A DNA stretch of 64,000 nt from Jiella sonneratiae. Its GTDB lineage: Bacteria > Pseudomonadota > Alphaproteobacteria > Rhizobiales > Rhizobiaceae. The DNA lies in assembly GCF_017353515.1 (NCBI RefSeq), contig NZ_JAFMPY010000013.1, positions 1 to 64,000 on the forward strand. The letters run 5' to 3'. The notes under the pieces are model-generated. The model was not told the DNA's origin and did no database searches. It was given only the letters and a program-made list of their open reading frames with translations. How positions within the stretch are numbered: the stretch's first letter is position 1; each line of letters begins with the position of its first letter. Shown in pieces: positions 8,696 to 18,309 of this stretch. A program made the position numbers and the translations under genes.

Positions 8696-9232
8696 TCATT
8701 CGAAGCAGCGGATCTCCGCCTCGGCCTGCGCACGGCGCAGGTCGTCGATCGCCGCCTTGCCCTCGGCAGCGCTGCGAAACAGGCTGCCGTTCTCGCCCGA
8801 GACCTGGCGCATCGACAGCCACGTCGAGGCTTCGACGTAGCGGCTGTAGGGTATCAGCGAGGCGACGACGTCGAAGGAGCAGGAACACTGGTTCAGCGCC
8901 GTCTGCGTGTTGCCGTTGGTGGCCATGCAGGCGAAGACGTAATCGGCGATCGTCGGCGTCGGATAGTCGGCCCGCGTCGACGACGGCGCCATGTCCGGCC
9001 CGACGGGCACTGCCGTCGCCCCGGCGTTCCCGCCGCTCATCGTGCCCGTGAACTTCTGGGCTCCGGCGCCCGCGCCGGGAACCGCGGCAGACCCCGGCGT
9101 CACCGCCTGCCCGCCGGAAACGGCCGGGCCCGTCGCGGTCTGGGCGCTGCCCGCTCCCGCCCCCGCAACGGCGAACGGCACGAAAAGCGCGAGCGCCGCG
9201 AGCGCCAAGCGTCGATTGAAGATCCTCGTCAT
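8696..9232 (-). CDS. Small secreted Cys-containing protein of unknown function
   Basis: The 178-residue product begins MTRIFNRRLALAALALF, a signal peptide ending near GAGSAQ. A low-complexity Gly/Ala/Pro/Val linker of about 60 residues follows. The C-terminal domain carries CMATNGNTQTALNQCSCSFD, the stretch SLIPYSRYVEASTWLSMRQV and a final EIRCFE, so four cysteines that could bind metal or form disulfides. I do not recognise the family with certainty. It is the last gene of a leftward cluster after an SRPBCC and a beta-propeller protein, 128 bases from the latter. The open frame extends upstream to 9364, but ATG 9232 fits the signal peptide. Confidence 0.7.
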   Translation of the reverse strand: MTRIFNRRLALAALALFVPFAVAGAGAGSAQTATGPAVSGGQAVTPGSAAVPGAGAGAQKFTGTMSGGNAGATAVPVGPDMAPSSTRADYPTPTIADYVFACMATNGNTQTALNQCSCSFDVVASLIPYSRYVEASTWLSMRQVSGENGSLFRSAAEGKAAIDDLRRAQAEAEIRCFE

Positions 9233-9360
9233 CTGGCTTCCTCCCGAAGCGGGCCGCCAGCCGGCGCAATCCCGCCTCCCATGATTTCCGTCGCAAATGG
9301 CGTCGGGCGCCGTTTTCCCGCAAAGCGCCGCGGGAAAGGTTCCCGATCTTGACCGCGCGG

Positions 9361-10389
9361 TCACTTCTTTCGAGCGCCCGCCTCGTCCGCCGTCGCCGGC
9401 GCCGGCCCGACGAAGCTGCCGAAGGCGCGCGGCCCGTCCGGAACGTCGACGCTGCCGGTCTCCTCAAGGCCGGCCGCATCGAGCCTGACCAGCGTGTTGG
9501 CGAACCAGTTCGCGACATAGACGCTGGTCCCGTCGCTGCCGGCGGCGATCCCCTCGGGATAGTCGCAGCAGTCGAGTTGGCCGAGCCGCTCGCCATTCGC
9601 CGGATCGAAGACCGTGACGCTCCCGCCATACTGGTCGGTGACGAAGACCTTCCCCATCGTCTCCACCGCATCGTAGGGGTGGGAGCCGACCGGGACGGTG
9701 CGCAGGACGACATGGCTCTCGGCATCGACGACGCTGACCGAATCCGAGCCGACATTGGCGGCATAGACCCGTTTTCCGTCCGGCGAGAACGACACGCCGA
9801 ACGGCCGCTCCCCGACGCCGACGCGGGCGATCACCGCCCCGCTCCGCGCCGCGAAGAATGACAGCTGATCGGAATCGCGGTCGGCGGTGACGACCACTTC
9901 CCCATCGGCGGAGACGACGACGCCTGAGGGCGACTTGCCGGTCTCGAAGCGGCCGGTCACGGCACGCCTTTCCGGATCGACGAGCAGCAGCGAATGGGAA
10001 TACCAGTCGGCGACGTAGACCGGCGCGCCGGACGGGTGGACGGCGATGCCGAGCGGCCCGCCGCCGACATCGACCTCCGCGATCAGCCGGCCGGCCTGCG
10101 TGTCGACGATGGCGACCTGTTTGGAATCCGGCTGCGAGACGTAGGCGCGCCGGCCGTCGCGGCTTACCGCGATGCCGGCAGGCTTGCCGGGGATGTCGAT
10201 CGTGCGGACGACCGCCATCCGGTCGAGATCGACGATCGACAACGTCTCCGCCTCCTGGCTGGTGACATAGGCGCGATCGCCGGCCAGGGCCGGCGTCTGC
10301 GCCGTCGCCACGGCCAGCAGCGCGCCGGCGAGAGCGGCCGCGACGCGCCGAGCCGCCGGTCTGCGCAGCGAAGCGATCGGCCGGCTCAC
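9361..10389 (-). CDS. Secreted YVTN-family beta-propeller protein
   Basis: The 342-residue product has an N-terminal signal peptide (AALAGALLAVATAQTPALA) and about seven repeats of roughly 42 residues. Repeats alternate sequences such as RAYVTSQEAETLSIVDL, PVYVADWYSHSLLLVDP and SVYVANWFANTLVRLDA with the linker pattern P-x-G-I/V-A/S-V/F-S/H-x-D/S-G. This is the YncE/YVTN beta-propeller signature, a periplasmic binding or scaffold fold. The start is GTG 10389 overlapping the SRPBCC stop (GTGA), so the two are translationally coupled. In other bacteria such propellers sit near PQQ dehydrogenases, but none is in view. Confidence 0.8.
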   Translation of the reverse strand: MSRPIASLRRPAARRVAAALAGALLAVATAQTPALAGDRAYVTSQEAETLSIVDLDRMAVVRTIDIPGKPAGIAVSRDGRRAYVSQPDSKQVAIVDTQAGRLIAEVDVGGGPLGIAVHPSGAPVYVADWYSHSLLLVDPERRAVTGRFETGKSPSGVVVSADGEVVVTADRDSDQLSFFAARSGAVIARVGVGERPFGVSFSPDGKRVYAANVGSDSVSVVDAESHVVLRTVPVGSHPYDAVETMGKVFVTDQYGGSVTVFDPANGERLGQLDCCDYPEGIAAGSDGTSVYVANWFANTLVRLDAAGLEETGSVDVPDGPRAFGSFVGPAPATADEAGARKK

Positions 10390-10922
10390 GAGCCCGCTTC
10401 GACCTTCTTCTTCAGGCCTTCGAGGCCTTCGGTGATGAAGCCGGTCACGCCCTTCACCGAGGCTTCGTCGTTGAGCTCGGCCGGCGGGTCGTTGTTCGGA
10501 TAGCCGCGATAGAAGGCGGCGCGCCAGGTCACCTCGGACTTCGCCCCGCCGTCTGCGGGCTTGACGGTGATGGTCGAGGAGTAGTTCGTCGCCGGCAGGA
10601 GGTCGGTGTTCACATGGCCGATGAAGGTGGAATAGCTCATCTTGTCGGCGTCGTATTTGGAGAGTTCCTCCTCCATCATCCCGCCGGACTTGAAGCCGAG
10701 CGTGCGCACCGACCCCTTCTCGTTGCCCTTGCTGGCGTCGGTCATGGCGATCCGCGGATGCCAGGACATGTCGCCGAAATTCTCGATCGCCGCCCAGACC
10801 TTCTCGGGGGCCGCATCGATGGTGATCGTGTCGCTCGCCTTCTGGCGGGTCGGACCATGCGCCGCGGCGATGCCCGGCAGGACGAAAAGCGCCACGACCA
10901 GCGCGGCGAAAGCTCTGAACAC
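10386..10922 (-). CDS. Secreted SRPBCC (START-like) domain protein
   Basis: The 178-residue product has a signal peptide (ALVVALFVLPGIAAAHG) and then an SRPBCC/polyketide-cyclase-like domain: ITIDAAPEKVWAAIENFGDMSWHP is the canonical first strand and helix of this fold, and the C-terminal helix ends GLEGLKKKVEAGS. SRPBCC proteins bind hydrophobic ligands in a deep pocket; export of one is less common. It is the first gene of the leftward three-gene cluster and is coupled to the beta-propeller gene. It faces an acyl-CoA dehydrogenase across a 298-base divergent intergenic region. Confidence 0.78.
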   Translation of the reverse strand: MFRAFAALVVALFVLPGIAAAHGPTRQKASDTITIDAAPEKVWAAIENFGDMSWHPRIAMTDASKGNEKGSVRTLGFKSGGMMEEELSKYDADKMSYSTFIGHVNTDLLPATNYSSTITVKPADGGAKSEVTWRAAFYRGYPNNDPPAELNDEASVKGVTGFITEGLEGLKKKVEAGS

Positions 10923-11220
10923 GGCCAGACTCCTCTTTCGATTCGGTGCCCACCCGAACCATCGGCCGGCGTGACCCTAGTCACAAGGCCCGGCGAGGGA
11001 AAGGGGCATCGCGCCGGCCGGCGCCGGCCCGATGCGCCTGCAGCTCTGCCGGGACGGCCGCATCGATTTACTCTTACGTTCGCGTCAATTATGCTAGAAT
11101 CGCGGCGAAGCGGCGATGCCGTTTCGCGTCGCATCGCGCCCTAGCACGCCCGCCCGTTCCGCATTGCATCGGGCGGCATTCGCATCGGGGCGACGCGGGC
11201 GACGACCGGGAGGACGAGAC

Positions 11221-12423
11221 ATGGACCTGACCTTTTCAGCCGAAGAGACGGCGTTCCGCGCGGAGGTCCGCGCCTTCATCGCCGAGAACGTGCCGAGGGA
11301 CGCAAAGGAAACGCTGCGCGCCGGCCGCCATGTGACGAAGGACCAGCTGCAGCGCTGGACGCGCATCCTGAACGCAAAGGGCTGGTCGGTCCCGCACTGG
11401 CCGGTCGAACACGGCGGCACCGGCTGGGATCCGATCCGCCAGTACATCTTTCTCGACGAGATGCAGCGCGCGCCGGCACCGCAGATGCTGCCCTTCGGCC
11501 ATTCGATGGTCGGGCCGGTGATCTACACCTTCGGCTCCGACGACCAGAAGAAGCGCTTCCTGCCGCGCATCGCCAATCTCGACGACTGGTGGTGCCAGGG
11601 CTTTTCCGAGCCGGGCGCCGGCTCCGACCTCGCCGGCCTCACGACCAAAGCGGTGAAGGACGGCGAGACCTATGTCGTCAACGGCCAGAAGACCTGGACC
11701 ACCCTCGCCCAGCATGCCGACTGGATCTTCTGCCTGGTGCGCACCGACCCGGCGGCGCCGAAAAAGCAGATGGGCATTTCCTTCCTCCTGATCGACATGA
11801 CGACGCCCGGAATCACCGTGCGGCCGATCCGCACCATCGAGGGCGGCCACGAGGTCAACGAGGTGTTCTTCGACGACGTCAGGGTGCCGGCGGAAAACCT
11901 CGTCGGCGAGGAGAACCGCGGATGGGACTATGCGAAGTTCCTGCTCGGCAACGAGCGCACGGGGATCGCCGGCGTCGGCGCCACCAAGGAACGCATCCGC
12001 CGGCTGAAGGAGATCGCCAGGGCGGAACCGTCCGGCGCCGGCACCGTCTGGGACGATCCGCGCTTCCGCGAGAAGGTGGCGGCCGTCGAGATCGAGCTGA
12101 AGGCGCTGGAGATGACGCAGCTGCGCGTCGTCTCGGCGGAAGCGCGGCGCGGCCACGGCAAGCCGGACCCGGCATCCTCTATCCTCAAGATCAAGGGCAC
12201 TGAGCTGCAGCAGGCGGCGACCGAGCTTCTGATGGAGGCGATCGGCCCCTTCGCCCTGCCCTTCGAGGCCGAGGAGATCGAAGGACGCAACGAGCCGCCC
12301 GTCGGGCCGGACTACGCCGCGCCGATCGCGCCGAACTATTTCAACACGCGCAAGGTGTCGATCTACGGCGGCTCCAACGAGATCCAGAAGAACATCATCG
12401 CCAAGGCGATCCTGGGGCTGTGA
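11221..12423 (+). CDS. Acyl-CoA dehydrogenase, large-subunit type (pimeloyl-CoA dehydrogenase PimC-like)
   Basis: The 400-residue flavoenzyme would oxidise an acyl-CoA to its 2-enoyl-CoA. Visible hallmarks are WWCQGFSEPGAGSDLAGL (flavin and substrate contact), VNGQKTWTT, and IYGGSNEIQKNIIAKAILGL near the C-terminus. The N-terminus MDLTFSAEETAFRAEVRAFI resembles the large subunit of the pimeloyl-CoA dehydrogenase (PimC) group. GGGAGG sits just before ATG 11221. A second, shorter acyl-CoA dehydrogenase follows on the same strand; such pairs can form heteromeric enzymes. The substrate is inferred from family resemblance only. Confidence 0.85.
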   Translation: MDLTFSAEETAFRAEVRAFIAENVPRDAKETLRAGRHVTKDQLQRWTRILNAKGWSVPHWPVEHGGTGWDPIRQYIFLDEMQRAPAPQMLPFGHSMVGPVIYTFGSDDQKKRFLPRIANLDDWWCQGFSEPGAGSDLAGLTTKAVKDGETYVVNGQKTWTTLAQHADWIFCLVRTDPAAPKKQMGISFLLIDMTTPGITVRPIRTIEGGHEVNEVFFDDVRVPAENLVGEENRGWDYAKFLLGNERTGIAGVGATKERIRRLKEIARAEPSGAGTVWDDPRFREKVAAVEIELKALEMTQLRVVSAEARRGHGKPDPASSILKIKGTELQQAATELLMEAIGPFALPFEAEEIEGRNEPPVGPDYAAPIAPNYFNTRKVSIYGGSNEIQKNIIAKAILGL

Positions 12424-12462
12424 GGGGGCGCTGAGTCTTCTGGCTGGCGTTGGCGCATGCAT

Positions 12463-12636
12463 ACCCCCCTCTGTCCTGCCGGACATCTCCCCCACAAGGA
12501 GGGAGATCGATCCTGCGCAGAGGGCTACGCCAATCTCAGACGCCCGAAACCGCATAAACGCTGGAAGTGAGGCGACGACGACGAAGCCGCCGATCTCCCC
12601 CCTTGCGCGGGAGATGCCGGCAGGCAGAGGGGGGTG
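12463..12636. repeat. Long palindromic intergenic repeat (rhizobial dispersed type)
   Basis: Two imperfect complementary arms, 12463-12509 and 12591-12636, lie between the two acyl-CoA dehydrogenase genes. The left arm reads ACCCCCCTCTGTCCTGCC then GGACATCTCCCCCACAAGG. The right arm is its inverse with a few mismatches (CTTGCGCGGGAGATGCCGG, CAGGCAGAGGGGGGT). From general knowledge, closely similar palindromes recur in rhizobial genomes. The arms could form a large cruciform or RNA stem. A short related piece occurs at 37080-37104. Confidence 0.75.
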
Positions 12637-12725
12637 CCTCGGCACCGCCTGATCAGAACATCATGTCGACGTCGTTGCCGCAGCAAGGCGGCCCGCCATC
12701 GACGGCAATTTCCGGGAGGAACCAC

Positions 12726-13874
12726 ATGGATTTCGATCTCTCCGAGGAACAGCGCCTCATCAAGGACTCGGTGACGCGGCTGCTGCGCACCGAATACGGC
12801 TTCGAGGCGCGCGAGAAGCATCGGGCCGAGGCGGCCGGTTTTTCCGAAAAGCTCTGGGCATCCTTCGCCGAACTCGGCCTTCTCGCCATCCCCTTCGACG
12901 AGGCCGACGGCGGCCTCGGCGCCGGGCCGGTCGAGACGATGATCGTCATGGAGGCCTTCGGCCGCGCCCTCGTGGTCGAGCCCTATCTCGCCTCGGTGGT
13001 GATGGCGGGCGCCGCCCTGCGCCATGCCGGTTCGCCAGAACAGCGGGCCGAATGGCTGCCGGGCATCGTCGATGGATCCAGCCGCCTCGCCTTCGCCTTC
13101 GCCGAGCGCGGGACACGCTACGATCTCTCCCAGATTGCCATGCGGGCGACCCCGGAGGACGACGGTTTCCGCCTGTCGGGGGAAAAGACGCTGGTGCTGC
13201 ACGGCGACACGGCGACGGGTTTCGTCGTCGCCGCCCGGACGGCGGGGGAGGCCGGCGAAGCGGAAGGCCTCGGCCTGTTCCTCGTGCCGGCCGACGCCGA
13301 GGGGCTGTCGCGGCGCGGCTTTCCGACCCAGGACGGGATGCGCGCCGCCGAACTTTCCTTCGCCGACGTCCGCGTCCCGAAGGAAGCGGTGCTCGGCGAG
13401 CCCGGTGCGGCCGCGGCGACGATCGCCCGGATCGAGGCCGAGGCGATCGCGGCGCTCTGCGCCGAGGCGGTCGGGTCGATGGAGCGGATGGTCGAACTGA
13501 CCGTCGCCTACATCAAGGAACGCAAGCAGTTCGGCGTGCCGATCGCCGCCTTCCAGGTGCTGCAGCACAAGGCGGCCGAGATGTACATCGCGCTCGAACA
13601 GGCCCGCTCGATGGCGATCTTCGCGGCGATGAACGCGGCCGAGAGCGACGAGGGCGCGCGCCGGACCGCCATGGCCGCGGCGAAGGTCCAGATCGGCCGT
13701 TCCGGCCGCTTCATCGCCCAGACCGCGGTCCAGCTTCACGGCGGGGTGGGCGTGACCATGGAGTACGAGATCGCCCACCACTTCAAGCGCCAGGCGATGA
13801 TCGACCTTTCCTTCGGCGATGCCGATCACCACCAGCAGATCGTGGCGGCTGAAGGCGGCCTCGACGACCGGTGA
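12726..13874 (+). CDS. Acyl-CoA dehydrogenase, small-subunit type (PimD-like)
   Basis: The 382-residue product begins MDFDLSEEQRLIKDSVTRLL, characteristic of the PimD-like small subunits that pair with a PimC-like dehydrogenase. The fold is retained: AFAERGTRYDL in the flavin-contact region, AYIKERKQFGVPIAAFQVLQ, and QLHGGVGVTMEYEIAHHFKR near the C-terminus. Whether its own active site is functional is uncertain, since the flavin/substrate region is degenerate compared with the partner. ATG 12726 follows GGGAGGAACCAC, a strong ribosome site. The 302-base gap from the partner is mostly palindromic repeat. Confidence 0.85.
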   Translation: MDFDLSEEQRLIKDSVTRLLRTEYGFEAREKHRAEAAGFSEKLWASFAELGLLAIPFDEADGGLGAGPVETMIVMEAFGRALVVEPYLASVVMAGAALRHAGSPEQRAEWLPGIVDGSSRLAFAFAERGTRYDLSQIAMRATPEDDGFRLSGEKTLVLHGDTATGFVVAARTAGEAGEAEGLGLFLVPADAEGLSRRGFPTQDGMRAAELSFADVRVPKEAVLGEPGAAAATIARIEAEAIAALCAEAVGSMERMVELTVAYIKERKQFGVPIAAFQVLQHKAAEMYIALEQARSMAIFAAMNAAESDEGARRTAMAAAKVQIGRSGRFIAQTAVQLHGGVGVTMEYEIAHHFKRQAMIDLSFGDADHHQQIVAAEGGLDDR

Positions 13875-14008
13875 GGTGGTTCGGCCGGCCTTTCGGGCCC
13901 GGCTGACACCATTCGTTACATATCGATACCGGCGACGAATGGAAGCGCGCCCGCCGGCGACGTATTTCTGGGAGTGTCCCAGACCTCAATTCCCGCGTGC
14001 GTCCGCCG

Positions 14009-15190
14009 ATGAAGCTTCCCGCCATCCGATGGAAACCGACCTGCGTCCTCGTCCTGACGGCCTGCCTCGTCGTCGCCGGGGCGATCCGCATGCCCGAGCG
14101 GCATACCGGCAGCGAGGATGCCGCGAGCGCGGCCTCCGCCGCCGCGCCCGACGCGGCTTCGGACCAGCCGGCGAGCCTGACGGTCACCACCGACACGGTC
14201 CGCCATGACACGATCGGCCGGACGATCGTCGGCAACGGCGTCGTCGCGGCGCATCGCGAGGTCACCATCGGGGCGGAGGCGACCGGCCTCGCTCTCACCG
14301 ACGTCCTCGTGGCACAGGGCGACCGCGTCGAGAAGGGGCAGGTGATCGCGCGGCTCGACGGCTCGCTCCTGAAGGCTCAGATCGCCGAACAGGACGCCGC
14401 GATCGACAGCGCCGAGGCGACGCTCGCCAACGCGGTCTCGACCAGCGACCGCAGCCAGCGGCTGATGAAGTCCGGCACCGTCTCGCGGGAGACCGCCGAG
14501 AGCAACGCCACCAGCGTCGCCACCGCGAAAGCCGCACTCGCCGAGGCCGAGGCGGCCAGAAAGACGCTGGAGGTGCAGCTCGCACGGACCGAGATCCGCG
14601 CCCCCTTCGCCGGCGTCGTCTCCGCCCGGCCTTCCGTGCCGGGCATCATCGTCCAGGCATCGACCGAGATCGCCCGCATCCAGGAGGACGGCGCGCTCGA
14701 GGCGCGGGTCGACGTGCCCGAAGCGGCCGTTTCGAGCCTCGAAGCGGGCGCGAGCGCCGAGATCACCGCCCCCGACGGCCGCACCATCGCAGCGAAGCTC
14801 GCCTCGCTCGACGAAGTGGTCGATTCCGACACCCATCTCGCCCTTGCCGTCGTCCCGCTTCCCGACGGGTCGGGCCTCAGGGCCGGCATGTTCGTCACGG
14901 CGAAGATCGAGGCGGGCGGTGCCGACAGCCTGACCGTCGCCGACCGGGCGCTGACCTGGCAGGAGGGCAAGACCGCGGTGTTCCGGGTCGGCGCCGACGA
15001 TACCGTCGCCGCGATTCCGGTGGCGGTCGGCGCGCGCAGCGACGGCCGCGTCGCCGTCGCCGGCGACCTTGCCGCCGGCGACCGGGTGGTGACGAGCGGC
15101 GCCGGCTTCCTGCAGGACGGCAACAGGGTCCGGCTGGTCACCGAGCAGGCGTCGGCGGAAGCGACCGGCCAGAAGGAGGGCGGCCAGTGA
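14009..15190 (+). CDS. RND efflux periplasmic adaptor (membrane fusion protein)
   Basis: The 393-residue product has an N-terminal membrane anchor or signal (CVLVLTACLVVAGAI) and the HlyD/AcrA adaptor order: a beta-barrel and lipoyl half (VVAAHREVTIGAEATGLALTDVLVAQGDRVEKGQVIARLD), a helical hairpin (about 120-190), the second lipoyl half (LARTEIRAPFAGVVSARP) and barrel/membrane-proximal domains. It bridges the inner-membrane pump to an outer-membrane channel, which is not in the window. ATG 14009 is preferred to the upstream GTG 13997. Its stop overlaps the pump GTG. Substrate is unknown. Confidence 0.88.
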   Translation: MKLPAIRWKPTCVLVLTACLVVAGAIRMPERHTGSEDAASAASAAAPDAASDQPASLTVTTDTVRHDTIGRTIVGNGVVAAHREVTIGAEATGLALTDVLVAQGDRVEKGQVIARLDGSLLKAQIAEQDAAIDSAEATLANAVSTSDRSQRLMKSGTVSRETAESNATSVATAKAALAEAEAARKTLEVQLARTEIRAPFAGVVSARPSVPGIIVQASTEIARIQEDGALEARVDVPEAAVSSLEAGASAEITAPDGRTIAAKLASLDEVVDSDTHLALAVVPLPDGSGLRAGMFVTAKIEAGGADSLTVADRALTWQEGKTAVFRVGADDTVAAIPVAVGARSDGRVAVAGDLAAGDRVVTSGAGFLQDGNRVRLVTEQASAEATGQKEGGQ

Positions 15191-18100
15191 AGAACGTCTC
15201 CGCCTGGGCGATCCGCCACCCGCTGCCGACCATCGTCCTGTTCCTCGCCCTAGCGATCTGCGGTGCCTGGGGGTTCACCCAGCTGCGCGTCAACAACATG
15301 CCGGACATCGACTTCCCGATGGTCAAGGTGACGGTCGCCGAGACCGGCGCCGCGCCGACGGAACTCGAGACCCAGGTGACCGACCTCGTCGAGAATTCCG
15401 TCGCGACGATCTCCAACGTCGAGAGCGTCTCCTCGACGATCAGCGAGGGCTCCTCGGTCACGTCAATCGAGTTCAAGCTCGGCACCGACCTCATCGAGGC
15501 GACCGACGACGTCCAGAATGCCGTCGACGACATCCAGAGCCAGCTCCCGGACGCGGCGGAAACGCCGGTCGTCTCGCGCGTCGAGGCCGGCGATAACGCC
15601 ATCCTGACCTATGTGGTCGACGCGCCCGGCATGAAGCCGGACGAACTCTCCTGGTATGTCGACGAGGACGTCTCCAAGGCACTCCTCGGCGTCGAAGGCG
15701 TCTCGAAGATCGAGCGCTCCGGCGGCGTCGACCGGGCGATCCTCGTCAAGCTCGACCCGGCGCGCATCGACGCCTACGGCACGACGGTCGCCGCCGTCAC
15801 CAAGGCGCTCGCGGCCCAGAATCTCGATCAGGCGGGCGGGCGAACCGTCATCGGCGGCACCGAACAGTCGGTTCGCACGCTCGGCAGCGCCGGCTCGATC
15901 GCCGAGCTCGCGGCAACGCCGATCACCGTCGGCTCGGGCAAGTCGGTGCGGCTGTCCGATCTCGGCCAGGTCGTCGACGGCTGGGAAGAGCCGCGCAGCA
16001 GGGCCCGGCTGAACGGCAAGGAGGTCGTTTCCTTCGAGGTCTACAGCGCCAAGGGCTCGAGCCAGATCGGCGTCACCAAGGCGGCGCGCGCCGCAGTCCA
16101 GGCGATGGACGCCGCCGACCCGAAGGTGAGCTTCACCGAGGTCACGTCCTCGTCGGACTTCGTCCAGGAAAGCTACGACGCCGCCATCGAAGCGCTCTGG
16201 CTCGGGGCGCTGCTCGCCGTCGCCGTGGTCTTCCTCTTCCTCAGGGACGTCCGCGCCACCATCGTCGCCGCGACCGCCCTGCCGATGTCGCTCGTCCCGA
16301 CCTTCTTCGTGATGGAGTGGCTCGACCTTTCGCTCAACAACATCACGCTGCTCGCCTTGTCGCTGGTCGTCGGCATCCTCGTCGACGACGCCATCGTCGA
16401 GATCGAGAACATCGTCCGGCACATGCGCCAGAGCGGCAGGAGCGCCTACGAGGCGGCGATCGAGGCGGCCGACGAGATCGGCCTCGCCGTCGTCGCCACC
16501 ACCGCGACGATCGTCGCGGTGTTCCTTCCCGTCGGCTTCATGCCCGGCATCCCGGGCAAGATGTTCGTCTCCTTCGCCATCGCCGTCTGCGTCTCGGTCG
16601 GCTTCTCGCTGGTCGTTGCGCGGCTGCTGACGCCGCTGATGGGGGCCTATCTCGTCAAGGCCGGCCATGGCTCGACGGAAGAGGACACGCCGCGCTGGGT
16701 GCCGGCCTATCTCGCGCTCCTGCGCCAGGCGCTGCGGTTCCGCTGGCTGACGGCGCTCATCGGCGTCGCCTTCTTCGCCGGATCGGTCTATGTCGCGCTC
16801 GGCCTGCCGACCGAGTTCATGCCCTCGTCCGACCGCGGGCGCTCCCTCGTCGCGGTCGAGCTCGTGCCCGGTTCGAGGCTGGAAGAGACCGACGCGGTGG
16901 TGAAGAGGGTCAGCGCCGTCCTCGAAAAGCAGCCGGAGGTCGAAAGCGTCTTCGCCTCGATCGGCACGGCGAGCGAGGGCGGAGGCGGCCCGCAGCGCAA
17001 CACCACGGCGAGCGTCAATTCGGCGACGGTGACGGCCAATCTCGTCGACCGCGACGCACGGTCCGTCAGCCAGCAGGCGTTCGAAAAGCGCCTCTCCGGG
17101 GCCTTCGACGACATTCCGGGCGCGCGGATCCAGTTCGGCGCCGACGACCAGTCCGGCGCGAAGGTCAAGATCACCCTCGCCGGCGCGGACGGCAAGAAGC
17201 TCGCCGAGACGGCGAACGCGCTCGCCGCCGAAATGCGCGACGTGCCGGGCCTGCTCAATCCGATCTCCGACGCCGCGGCGGCCAAGCCGGAACTCGTCGT
17301 GACGCCCGACAAGCAGCGCATGGCCGCGTTCGGCATCACGGCGAGCGACGTCGCGACGCTCCTGTCGGTCGCCACCATCGGCGCCGACGAGGCGTCGCTG
17401 GCGAAATACAGCCTCGGCGACCGGCAGGTCTACGTCGTCCCGACGCTGAGCGACGACGCGCGGGGCGACCTCGACCGGATCAAGGCGTTGAAGATCGCCG
17501 GAACGTCCGCCTCCGTTCCTCTCGGCTCGATCGCGGATTTCGGCTTCGGCGCCGGCCCGACGACCATCACCCATTACGACGGCGAGCGCACCGCGAGCGT
17601 CGAGGCGGAGCTTTCCGGCATCACGCTGGGCGAGGCGGAGAAGGCGGTCAAGGCCCTGCCCGCGATGCGCGACCTGCCGGCCGGCATCCACGAGAAGGCG
17701 CAAGGCGACGCCAAGCGGATGAACGAGATGTTTTCCGGCTTCGAGATGGCGATGATCACCGGCGTCCTGTTGATGTTCGCGACGCTGGCGCTGCTCTTCA
17801 ACTCGTTCCTGCAGCCGATCACCATCCTGACCGCGCTGCCGCTGTCGATCGGCGGTGCCTTCGGCTTCCTGTGGCTGACCGGCTCGGCGGTGGCGATCTC
17901 GGTGCTGATCGGCGTCCTGCTGCTGATGGGCATCGCCGCCAAGAACTCGATCCTGCTCGTCGAATACGCCATCGTCGCACGGCGGGAAGGAACCTCGCGC
18001 TTCGAGGCACTGATGGAAGCGGCGCAAAAGCGCGCCCGGCCGATCGTCATGACGTCGATCGCCATGGGCGCCGGCATGGCGCCGCTCGCCCTCGGCTTCG

Positions 18101-18309
18101 GCGCCGACGCCGAGACGCGCGCGCCGATGGCGATCGCGGTGATCGGCGGCCTCGTCTCCTCGACGCTGCTCAGCCTCGTCTATGTGCCGGTGGTCTACAC
18201 GATCGTCGACGATCTCGAGCGGGTCCTCGGCCGCTGGCTCGGCAGGCTCCTGCCGACGGACGACCGGACCCCGTCGGGCGGCGCCGGGGCGGCAGCGCCG
18301 GCCGAATAG
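15187..18309 (+). CDS. RND-family efflux pump, inner-membrane transporter
   Basis: The 1040-residue product has full AcrB/MdtC-like length, twelve membrane segments and two large periplasmic loops. Proton-relay residues are visible: GILVDDAIVEIENI with Asp400/Asp401, and the partner lysine (Lys919) in GIAAKNSILLVEYA. The N-terminus (WAIRHPLPTIVLFLALAICG) is typical of HAE-1 pumps. It starts at GTG 15187, overlapping the adaptor stop (GTGA), so the two are co-translated. No outer-membrane channel or local regulator is adjacent. Drug, heavy metal or lipid substrates cannot be separated from sequence alone. Confidence 0.9.
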   Translation: MKNVSAWAIRHPLPTIVLFLALAICGAWGFTQLRVNNMPDIDFPMVKVTVAETGAAPTELETQVTDLVENSVATISNVESVSSTISEGSSVTSIEFKLGTDLIEATDDVQNAVDDIQSQLPDAAETPVVSRVEAGDNAILTYVVDAPGMKPDELSWYVDEDVSKALLGVEGVSKIERSGGVDRAILVKLDPARIDAYGTTVAAVTKALAAQNLDQAGGRTVIGGTEQSVRTLGSAGSIAELAATPITVGSGKSVRLSDLGQVVDGWEEPRSRARLNGKEVVSFEVYSAKGSSQIGVTKAARAAVQAMDAADPKVSFTEVTSSSDFVQESYDAAIEALWLGALLAVAVVFLFLRDVRATIVAATALPMSLVPTFFVMEWLDLSLNNITLLALSLVVGILVDDAIVEIENIVRHMRQSGRSAYEAAIEAADEIGLAVVATTATIVAVFLPVGFMPGIPGKMFVSFAIAVCVSVGFSLVVARLLTPLMGAYLVKAGHGSTEEDTPRWVPAYLALLRQALRFRWLTALIGVAFFAGSVYVALGLPTEFMPSSDRGRSLVAVELVPGSRLEETDAVVKRVSAVLEKQPEVESVFASIGTASEGGGGPQRNTTASVNSATVTANLVDRDARSVSQQAFEKRLSGAFDDIPGARIQFGADDQSGAKVKITLAGADGKKLAETANALAAEMRDVPGLLNPISDAAAAKPELVVTPDKQRMAAFGITASDVATLLSVATIGADEASLAKYSLGDRQVYVVPTLSDDARGDLDRIKALKIAGTSASVPLGSIADFGFGAGPTTITHYDGERTASVEAELSGITLGEAEKAVKALPAMRDLPAGIHEKAQGDAKRMNEMFSGFEMAMITGVLLMFATLALLFNSFLQPITILTALPLSIGGAFGFLWLTGSAVAISVLIGVLLLMGIAAKNSILLVEYAIVARREGTSRFEALMEAAQKRARPIVMTSIAMGAGMAPLALGFGADAETRAPMAIAVIGGLVSSTLLSLVYVPVVYTIVDDLERVLGRWLGRLLPTDDRTPSGGAGAAAPAE

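Follow-up and report, generated by a model that had tools for sequence, protein, structure and literature searches.

The window analysed here, a 64-kb stretch of DNA from Jiella sonneratiae, carries three minus-strand open reading frames (ORFs) encoding an SRPBCC-fold protein, a beta-propeller and a small protein with four conserved cysteines (hereafter the Cys protein). This trio very probably constitutes a periplasmic helper cassette for XoxF, the methanol dehydrogenase that depends on a lanthanide and on pyrroloquinoline quinone (PQQ). Its features are as follows:

10386..10922, minus strand: SRPBCC/START-fold exported protein (P0003), apparently a xox-side relative of MxaD; PF10604, E 2.5e-29
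10386..10389, minus strand: GTGA overlap of the SRPBCC stop and the propeller start, read from the sequence
9361..10389, minus strand: YVTN beta-propeller exported protein (P0002), partner of the SRPBCC protein; TIGR02276, E 2.1e-51
9240..9245, minus strand: GGGAGG, a ribosome-binding-like stretch ahead of the Cys-gene ATG, read from the sequence
8696..9232, minus strand: small exported protein with four conserved cysteines (C-x13-C-x-C ... C), of orf6/META1p1746 type by gene order

An earlier note, made without database searches, had described three consecutive genes for exported-looking proteins, the first two coupled by a GTGA overlap. The ORFs lie where that note placed them, the overlap is exact (...CTCGTGAGCC...), and an export-signal-like N-terminal stretch occurs in all three proteins (judged by eye). 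The fold calls SRPBCC and beta-propeller are likewise borne out, by matches to PF10604 and to TIGR02276 and PF21783 (the last at E 1e-19). The SRPBCC gene starts with GTG at 10922 and encodes 178 residues, PF10604 covering residues 27-175; the propeller gene, also with a GTG start, encodes 342. Membership of the propeller in TIGR03866 (PQQ_ABC_repeats) is ruled out by its score, 141.7 bits against a curated cut-off of 287.3. The Cys gene begins 128 bases beyond the propeller gene, with an ATG at 9232, and neither Pfam nor NCBIfam has a family that matches its 178-residue product. A GTG start at 9364 would lengthen the ORF to 222 residues, but the ATG start seems the better fit, suiting both the leader peptide and the homologues.

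Gene order in relatives and in the window's own genome

A contig scan with the SRPBCC protein supplied 80 loci for comparison, the best 80 of 560 relatives. In 78 of these a propeller gene comes after the SRPBCC gene, on its strand and with the match beginning no more than 1.2 kb on; the contigs of the other two (L069, L109) end shortly beyond the SRPBCC gene. The SRPBCC-propeller pair is nearly fixed. The Cys gene is present in 20 of the same 80 loci, namely all 19 from Aurantimonadaceae (L032-L048, L075, L105) and L074. The latter, a metagenome-assembled genome named Chromatiales, carries the SRPBCC gene, the propeller gene and a 36%-identical Cys gene.

What follows the trio in Aurantimonadaceae is a XoxF/PQQ dehydrogenase gene, downstream and on the same strand in 15 of the 19 loci. 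Between them usually lie a gene for a SoxYZ-like carrier and an oppositely oriented gene for a zinc metallohydrolase, and past the dehydrogenase there usually come a cytochrome c and then a MoxJ-type protein. In these relatives the trio is thus observed directly at the head of a xoxF cluster, in the order SRPBCC, propeller, Cys protein, SoxYZ-like carrier, zinc hydrolase, XoxF, cytochrome c, XoxJ. Scans of the L034 and L040 copies gave TIGR03075, TIGR04557, TIGR04559, TIGR03874 and TIGR03871 (the TIGR03874 match, at 155.3 bits, falls slightly below its cut-off of 161.75). A sixteenth locus (L037) has its dehydrogenase gene elsewhere in the stretch, and in L041, L045 and L046 no dehydrogenase was called within the stretch examined. 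Three family-f2 genomes (L120, L122, L135) show the same cluster order, with an orf7-type gene preceding the Cys gene. A locus from another order (L176) holds all the cluster genes within 13 kb in reshuffled order, and one from another class (L174) runs xoxF-cytochrome-xoxJ, then orf7, Cys gene, SoxYZ-like, propeller, SRPBCC and zinc hydrolase, so that here the propeller precedes the SRPBCC gene. The earlier view that the three proteins belong together and look periplasmic is correct.

Some loci depart from the common plan. Tandem SRPBCC copies stand ahead of a single propeller gene at L117:10184-11347 and L124:10419-11704. At L125:5662-7828 (G154) the SRPBCC and Cys genes flank an orf7-type gene instead of the propeller gene, and pqqC/pqqE-like genes (by eye) lie between SoxYZ and XoxF.

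Within the 64-kb window, queries for XoxF, XoxG-like, XoxJ, SoxYZ-like, zinc hydrolase and PqqB/C/E proteins all failed to match (tblastn, E 1e-3). The statement that no dehydrogenase, cytochrome or pqq gene is seen here therefore holds for the searched families in the window; it does not hold for the genome, which has a xoxF cluster elsewhere. Its XoxF is encoded on another contig (G000:C71:80222-82060, 91% identity to the L034 copy), which rules out a pathway without a dehydrogenase. The cluster on C71 comprises SoxYZ-like, zinc hydrolase, XoxF, cytochrome, XoxJ (TIGR03871) and CXXCW (TIGR03865) proteins. This XoxF scores 748.7 bits against TIGR03075 (methanol/ethanol-type PQQ dehydrogenase; cut-off 480.05) and carries HDEWDYDG and a vicinal CC. 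The extra Asp typical of lanthanide enzymes is present, in the HDEWDYDG motif, and by this residue the enzyme is of the lanthanide type. The second-Asp criterion is given in the part of PMC9291206 consulted. The search of the genome returned this one XoxF, otherwise only partial matches of 34-35%, and no MxaF. In this genome the Cys gene is single-copy; for the SRPBCC gene there is a single relative, at 37%.

Could the trio and the xoxF cluster be adjacent in the chromosome and parted only by the assembly? This was rejected, as the outward flanks of both carry other genes: on C71, more than 5 kb of them beyond the SoxYZ-like gene and nearly 6 kb beyond XoxJ, and on the window side of the Cys gene more than 8 kb of polysaccharide-type genes (by eye). 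The split therefore looks real, with the cassette broken in two in this genome, the Cys gene on one piece and the SoxYZ-like gene on the other. In the genome's own xoxF cluster (L115:12183-14057) XoxJ is followed by the CXXCW protein (TIGR03865), then by a cupredoxin-like protein and a CCGC protein (by eye).

On the other side of the trio, window positions 11116-18309 hold two acyl-CoA-dehydrogenase-like genes and a resistance-nodulation-division-type efflux pair (by eye). A functional tie to the acyl-CoA dehydrogenase genes was considered and dropped: among the best 80 of 560 they have matches, on the opposite strand, only in the nine closest loci (L032-L040), so that they look like merely local neighbours. 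A promoter scan gave no promoter-like site, and a terminator scan gave five terminator-like sites.

Co-occurrence of the Cys protein with XoxF

Presence and absence were scored in a single sample of 249 genomes from the order. XoxF was defined by an identity of 60% or more with the L034 protein together with a score of at least 760 bits, a line chosen after viewing the list, at a gap between the lowest accepted match (764 bits, in G230, where it is partial, 76% over residues 185-610) and the next (671 bits, 52%). No more than five dehydrogenase candidates were scored per genome (three in the phylum draw described below), so that additional copies could have escaped notice. At E 1e-150, 77 of the 249 genomes have a PQQ dehydrogenase of the XoxF/MxaF kind. 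The Cys profile matched in 69 at E 1e-5, every match being 2e-35 or better, and XoxF is present in exactly the same 69 genomes, with no mismatch either way; the Cys gene occurs in none of the eight genomes that have only MxaF or another PQQ dehydrogenase. The corresponding Fisher value, 2.7e-63, treats genomes as independent despite shared descent. In genus g54 both the Cys family and XoxF are found in two of six sampled genomes, and neither in the other four. A link to PQQ dehydrogenases and xoxF, which the earlier note had set down for checking, is thus upheld by this identity of presence in 249 genomes as well as by the 15 Aurantimonadaceae loci.

Proximity is common. The Cys gene lies within 20 kb of xoxF on one contig in 51 of the 69 genomes (within 5 kb in 35), farther away on the same contig in six, and on a different contig in 12, the window's genome included. 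The Cys genes of these last two groups, 18 in all, co-occur with xoxF even so.

A second sample of 329 genomes spanned the phylum (it overlaps the order draw, 10 of its 29 Cys-positive genomes being new), with the XoxF line at 58% identity or more (G568). A XoxF match accompanies the Cys profile in 28 of the 29 (that of G230 being the partial one). In the 29th, G527, a contig end carries the C-terminal 121 residues of a XoxF (80% identity), about 3.7 kb from the Cys gene; otherwise this genome showed just a 50% dehydrogenase. None of the 329 has a XoxF match and lacks the Cys gene, and the Cys gene is absent from the three with only 46-49% PQQ dehydrogenases. Five Cys-positive genomes belong to other classes, and in these the Cys gene is within about 8 kb of XoxF.

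The SRPBCC protein finds a match at E 1e-25 in 53 of the 249 genomes, 52 of them with a PQQ dehydrogenase match; orthologue-like copies (at least 145 bits, a line again chosen after viewing the list) occur in 44, of which 43 have XoxF. The orf7 family was found in 42 of the 249, all with the Cys gene (the profile had six rows, and distant copies may be missed); in 42 genomes orf7 is the upstream neighbour of the Cys gene.

Across 20 aligned rows of the Cys family, C102, C116, C118 and C176 are invariant, and Y98, N106, G107, S119, D121, Y132 and Q169 are also common to the 20 homologues. The copies from the five other-class genomes keep all four cysteines, the later one included, with spacing C-x13-C-x-C (L171, L172, L175) or C-x14-C-x-C (L173, L174). 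A Pfam scan of 20 members gave a best match of E 0.023, and an NCBIfam scan of three gave none. The AlphaFold model, made with 18 sequences, has five helices (mean predicted local distance difference test score 77.7, predicted template modelling score 0.64).

A small, helical-looking protein with an export-leader-like start, strictly co-occurring with XoxF and absent from genomes with only MxaF-type enzymes, invites the explanation that it is a small XoxF subunit missed so far, equivalent to MxaI of the calcium enzyme. We consider this highly improbable. Purified XoxF is a homodimer that is not known to have a small subunit. Sequence searches of solved structures with the Cys protein and its profile brought nothing useful (no match to the profile at E 1), and the predicted fold has no informative match.

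Probable counterparts in Methylorubrum extorquens AM1 and a proposed role

Gene order ties two members of the trio to genes studied in strain AM1. The locus L138, Methylobacterium-like by gene content, reads xoxF, cytochrome, xoxJ, ... folP-like, Cys gene, a 236-residue ORF, pqqE, pqqCD, pqqB, and the stretch from Cys gene to pqqB is identical in order in L138, L139 and L170. A Cys-family homologue stands at the orf6 place beside orf7-pqqE in L137, L138 and L139 (by profile) and in L170 (by tblastn). Table 1 of the AM1 study (PMC7391723, consulted in part) numbers xoxF1 1740, xoxG 1741, xoxJ 1742, orf6 1746, orf7 1747, pqqE 1748, pqqCD 1749 and pqqB 1750. The L138 order matches this numbering over 1740-1742 and 1746-1750, and the Cys protein would therefore be of the orf6 (META1p1746) type. 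The SRPBCC-propeller pair, for its part, is 27 kb (L117) and 23 kb (L118) away from xoxF. At a distance of 4-5 kb from the pair stands a LutA-like gene (TIGR03863 for the L117 copy), and after that gene comes a LutB-like propeller (TIGR03866). In AM1 the "mxaD homolog" META1p1771 sits between xoxF1 and lutA (1778), and the part of PMC7391723 consulted does not mention a propeller alongside it. The Methylobacterium-like relative of the SRPBCC protein is probably META1p1771. In a 67-row SRPBCC tree, which takes in 41 xox-side loci picked from about 100, 22 mxa loci and one distant paralogue, the window's protein and the copy at the META1p1771 place both fall outside the mxa group; the xox-side backbone is partly unsupported.

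According to the same part of PMC7391723, orf6, orf7 and the mxaD homolog are required in AM1 only with La3+. Growth per hour on methanol with La3+ was 0.16 for the wild type, 0.04 after a lag for the xoxF1 xoxF2 mutant, 0.03 for the orf6 mutant, 0.08 after a lag for orf7 and 0.11 for META1p1771, the orf6 deletion thus slowing growth as severely as the loss of xoxF1 and xoxF2. The trio had been taken to suggest an undescribed periplasmic pathway. That reading is not supported: the pathway is lanthanide-dependent methanol oxidation, and for two of the genes the probable counterparts already have these La3+-specific phenotypes.

From gene order and the published AM1 mutants we infer that the Cys protein is needed for XoxF function and that the SRPBCC protein, of META1p1771 type, is needed for the full rate. 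The Cys protein would act as a small helical periplasmic factor that helps XoxF to reach or keep its active state; its step might be the loading of PQQ and lanthanide, or thiol/disulfide handling, and here we are guessing. The SRPBCC-propeller pair may assist electron handover from the enzyme to the cytochrome, or hold the two together, by analogy with the MxaD pair of the calcium system. In that system mxaACKLRS is the set that serves the enzyme's maturation. A stronger claim, which we put at somewhat short of an even chance, is that XoxF maturation throughout Pseudomonadota depends on the four-cysteine protein as an obligatory factor that has yet to be named. It would then be a dedicated periplasmic chaperone for lanthanide/PQQ loading or thiol handling, in place of the mxaACKLRS set.

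The phenotypes also bear on the idea that the Cys protein and the pair are passengers of the xoxF cluster that act with the SoxYZ-like carrier and the zinc hydrolase in some other process, for instance formaldehyde or thiol stress. Four cysteines would suit thiol chemistry, and full clusters do place the Cys gene beside the SoxYZ-like carrier and the SoxH-like hydrolase, a set of unclear role (PMC12997753, consulted in part). However, the SoxYZ-like family is wider than the Cys family, occurring in 89 of the 249 genomes over the curated cut-off (136 at E 1e-20) against 69, and a passenger fits poorly with an orf6 deletion whose severity equals that of losing both xoxF genes, with La3+ only. 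Such a role is very unlikely.

Several observations weigh against a XoxF helper cassette. The presence counts are uncorrected for descent. As many as 26 of the 69 XoxF genomes lack an orthologue-like SRPBCC gene, so that the pair is optional, and one genome (G177) has the pair with neither XoxF nor the Cys gene detected. In Bradyrhizobium and Ancylobacter loci the pair sits amid unrelated genes, such as a uvrA-like gene (by eye) and a recQ-like cluster (scanned in a Bosea locus). The model of the Cys protein drew 59 Foldseek matches, none at E 0.001, and a best VIA-align Z of 5.1, with no informative fold among them. The AM1 counterparts, orf6 and META1p1771, were both identified solely from gene order. 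A search of the window's genome for orf7, with the six-row profile that may miss distant copies, gave no match.

The setting is known, and it holds one sharp new lead, the four-cysteine companion of XoxF. In the literature searched (open-licence papers, preprints excluded) neither the strict co-occurrence of Cys family and XoxF nor the SRPBCC-propeller pair in both calcium and lanthanide systems was seen, nor does either appear in the parts consulted of PMC9291206, PMC12628762, PMC12997753, PMC10848612 and PMC12482762. Searches for META1p1771/"mxaD homolog", META1p1746/1747 and orf6/orf7 returned only the AM1 study (PMC7391723), and a search for XoxI gave nothing relevant. How XoxF obtains its lanthanide and PQQ is not settled, according to the part of the PMC7391723 discussion consulted. 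A Cys protein with XoxF's presence pattern and no Pfam or NCBIfam model is a concrete target for work on the making or upkeep of this enzyme. That an MxaD-type protein is partnered by a propeller in both systems points to a common helper unit, whose propeller half is undiscussed in the literature found.

Comparison with the MxaD pair and other known systems

The mxa operon of the calcium system contains a pair like that of the window, an SRPBCC gene followed by a same-strand propeller gene, with 37-47% identity between the SRPBCC proteins. In the 22 mxa loci (L133, L134, L178-L197) a YVTN-type propeller of 28-37% identity comes directly after MxaD in 20; in L192 and L196 no propeller match lies within the 5 kb examined. 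The gene place after MxaD in the mxa operon is presumably that of mxaE. The combination of an SRPBCC protein and a propeller partner is thus common to the calcium and lanthanide systems.

Lut-cluster propellers, which may handle lanthanide, offer another model, in which the pair binds or delivers the metal. In L117 and L118 a TIGR03866 propeller (LutB-like, 27-30% identity to the window's; family scan of the L117 copy) does stand 6-7 kb away from the pair, and a YVTN protein is termed a LutB homologue in the part of PMC9291206 consulted; the window's own propeller is not in TIGR03866, however, and the like pair in 20 of 22 calcium-enzyme mxa loci argues for a role common to both enzymes. Lanthanide binding or delivery by the pair is accordingly unlikely.

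The SoxYZ-like carrier and SoxH-like zinc hydrolase (TIGR04557, TIGR04559) adjoin the Cys gene in relatives and form part of the xoxF cluster of the window's own genome. They are families separate from the trio, with a wider distribution; the set also occurs in the ped cluster of Pseudomonas (PMC12997753, in the part consulted).

With orf6 of AM1 the window's Cys gene probably shares a family whose Methylobacterium-like member (L138) has the placement xoxF-cytochrome-xoxJ ... Cys gene-orf7-pqqE-pqqCD-pqqB. The orf6-type gene adjoins orf7 and pqq genes in such genomes, whereas the window's Cys gene adjoins the propeller gene. Similarly, L117 and L118 carry the SRPBCC-propeller pair at the place matching META1p1771, but in the window the pair forms one unit with the Cys gene.

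MxaD itself is said to stimulate, directly or indirectly, the interaction of the dehydrogenase with cytochrome cL (PMC7391723, in the part consulted). The window's protein has the SRPBCC/START fold and export leader (the leader by eye) of the MxaD family. It does not group with the MxaD copies encoded about 7-10 kb from mxaF: the 22 mxa-linked SRPBCC copies form one group of their own with 100/100 support, and the window's protein lies outside it. The search of the window's genome gave no MxaF. It would appear that the window's pair is a paralogue, on the lanthanide side, of MxaD and the propeller that follows it.

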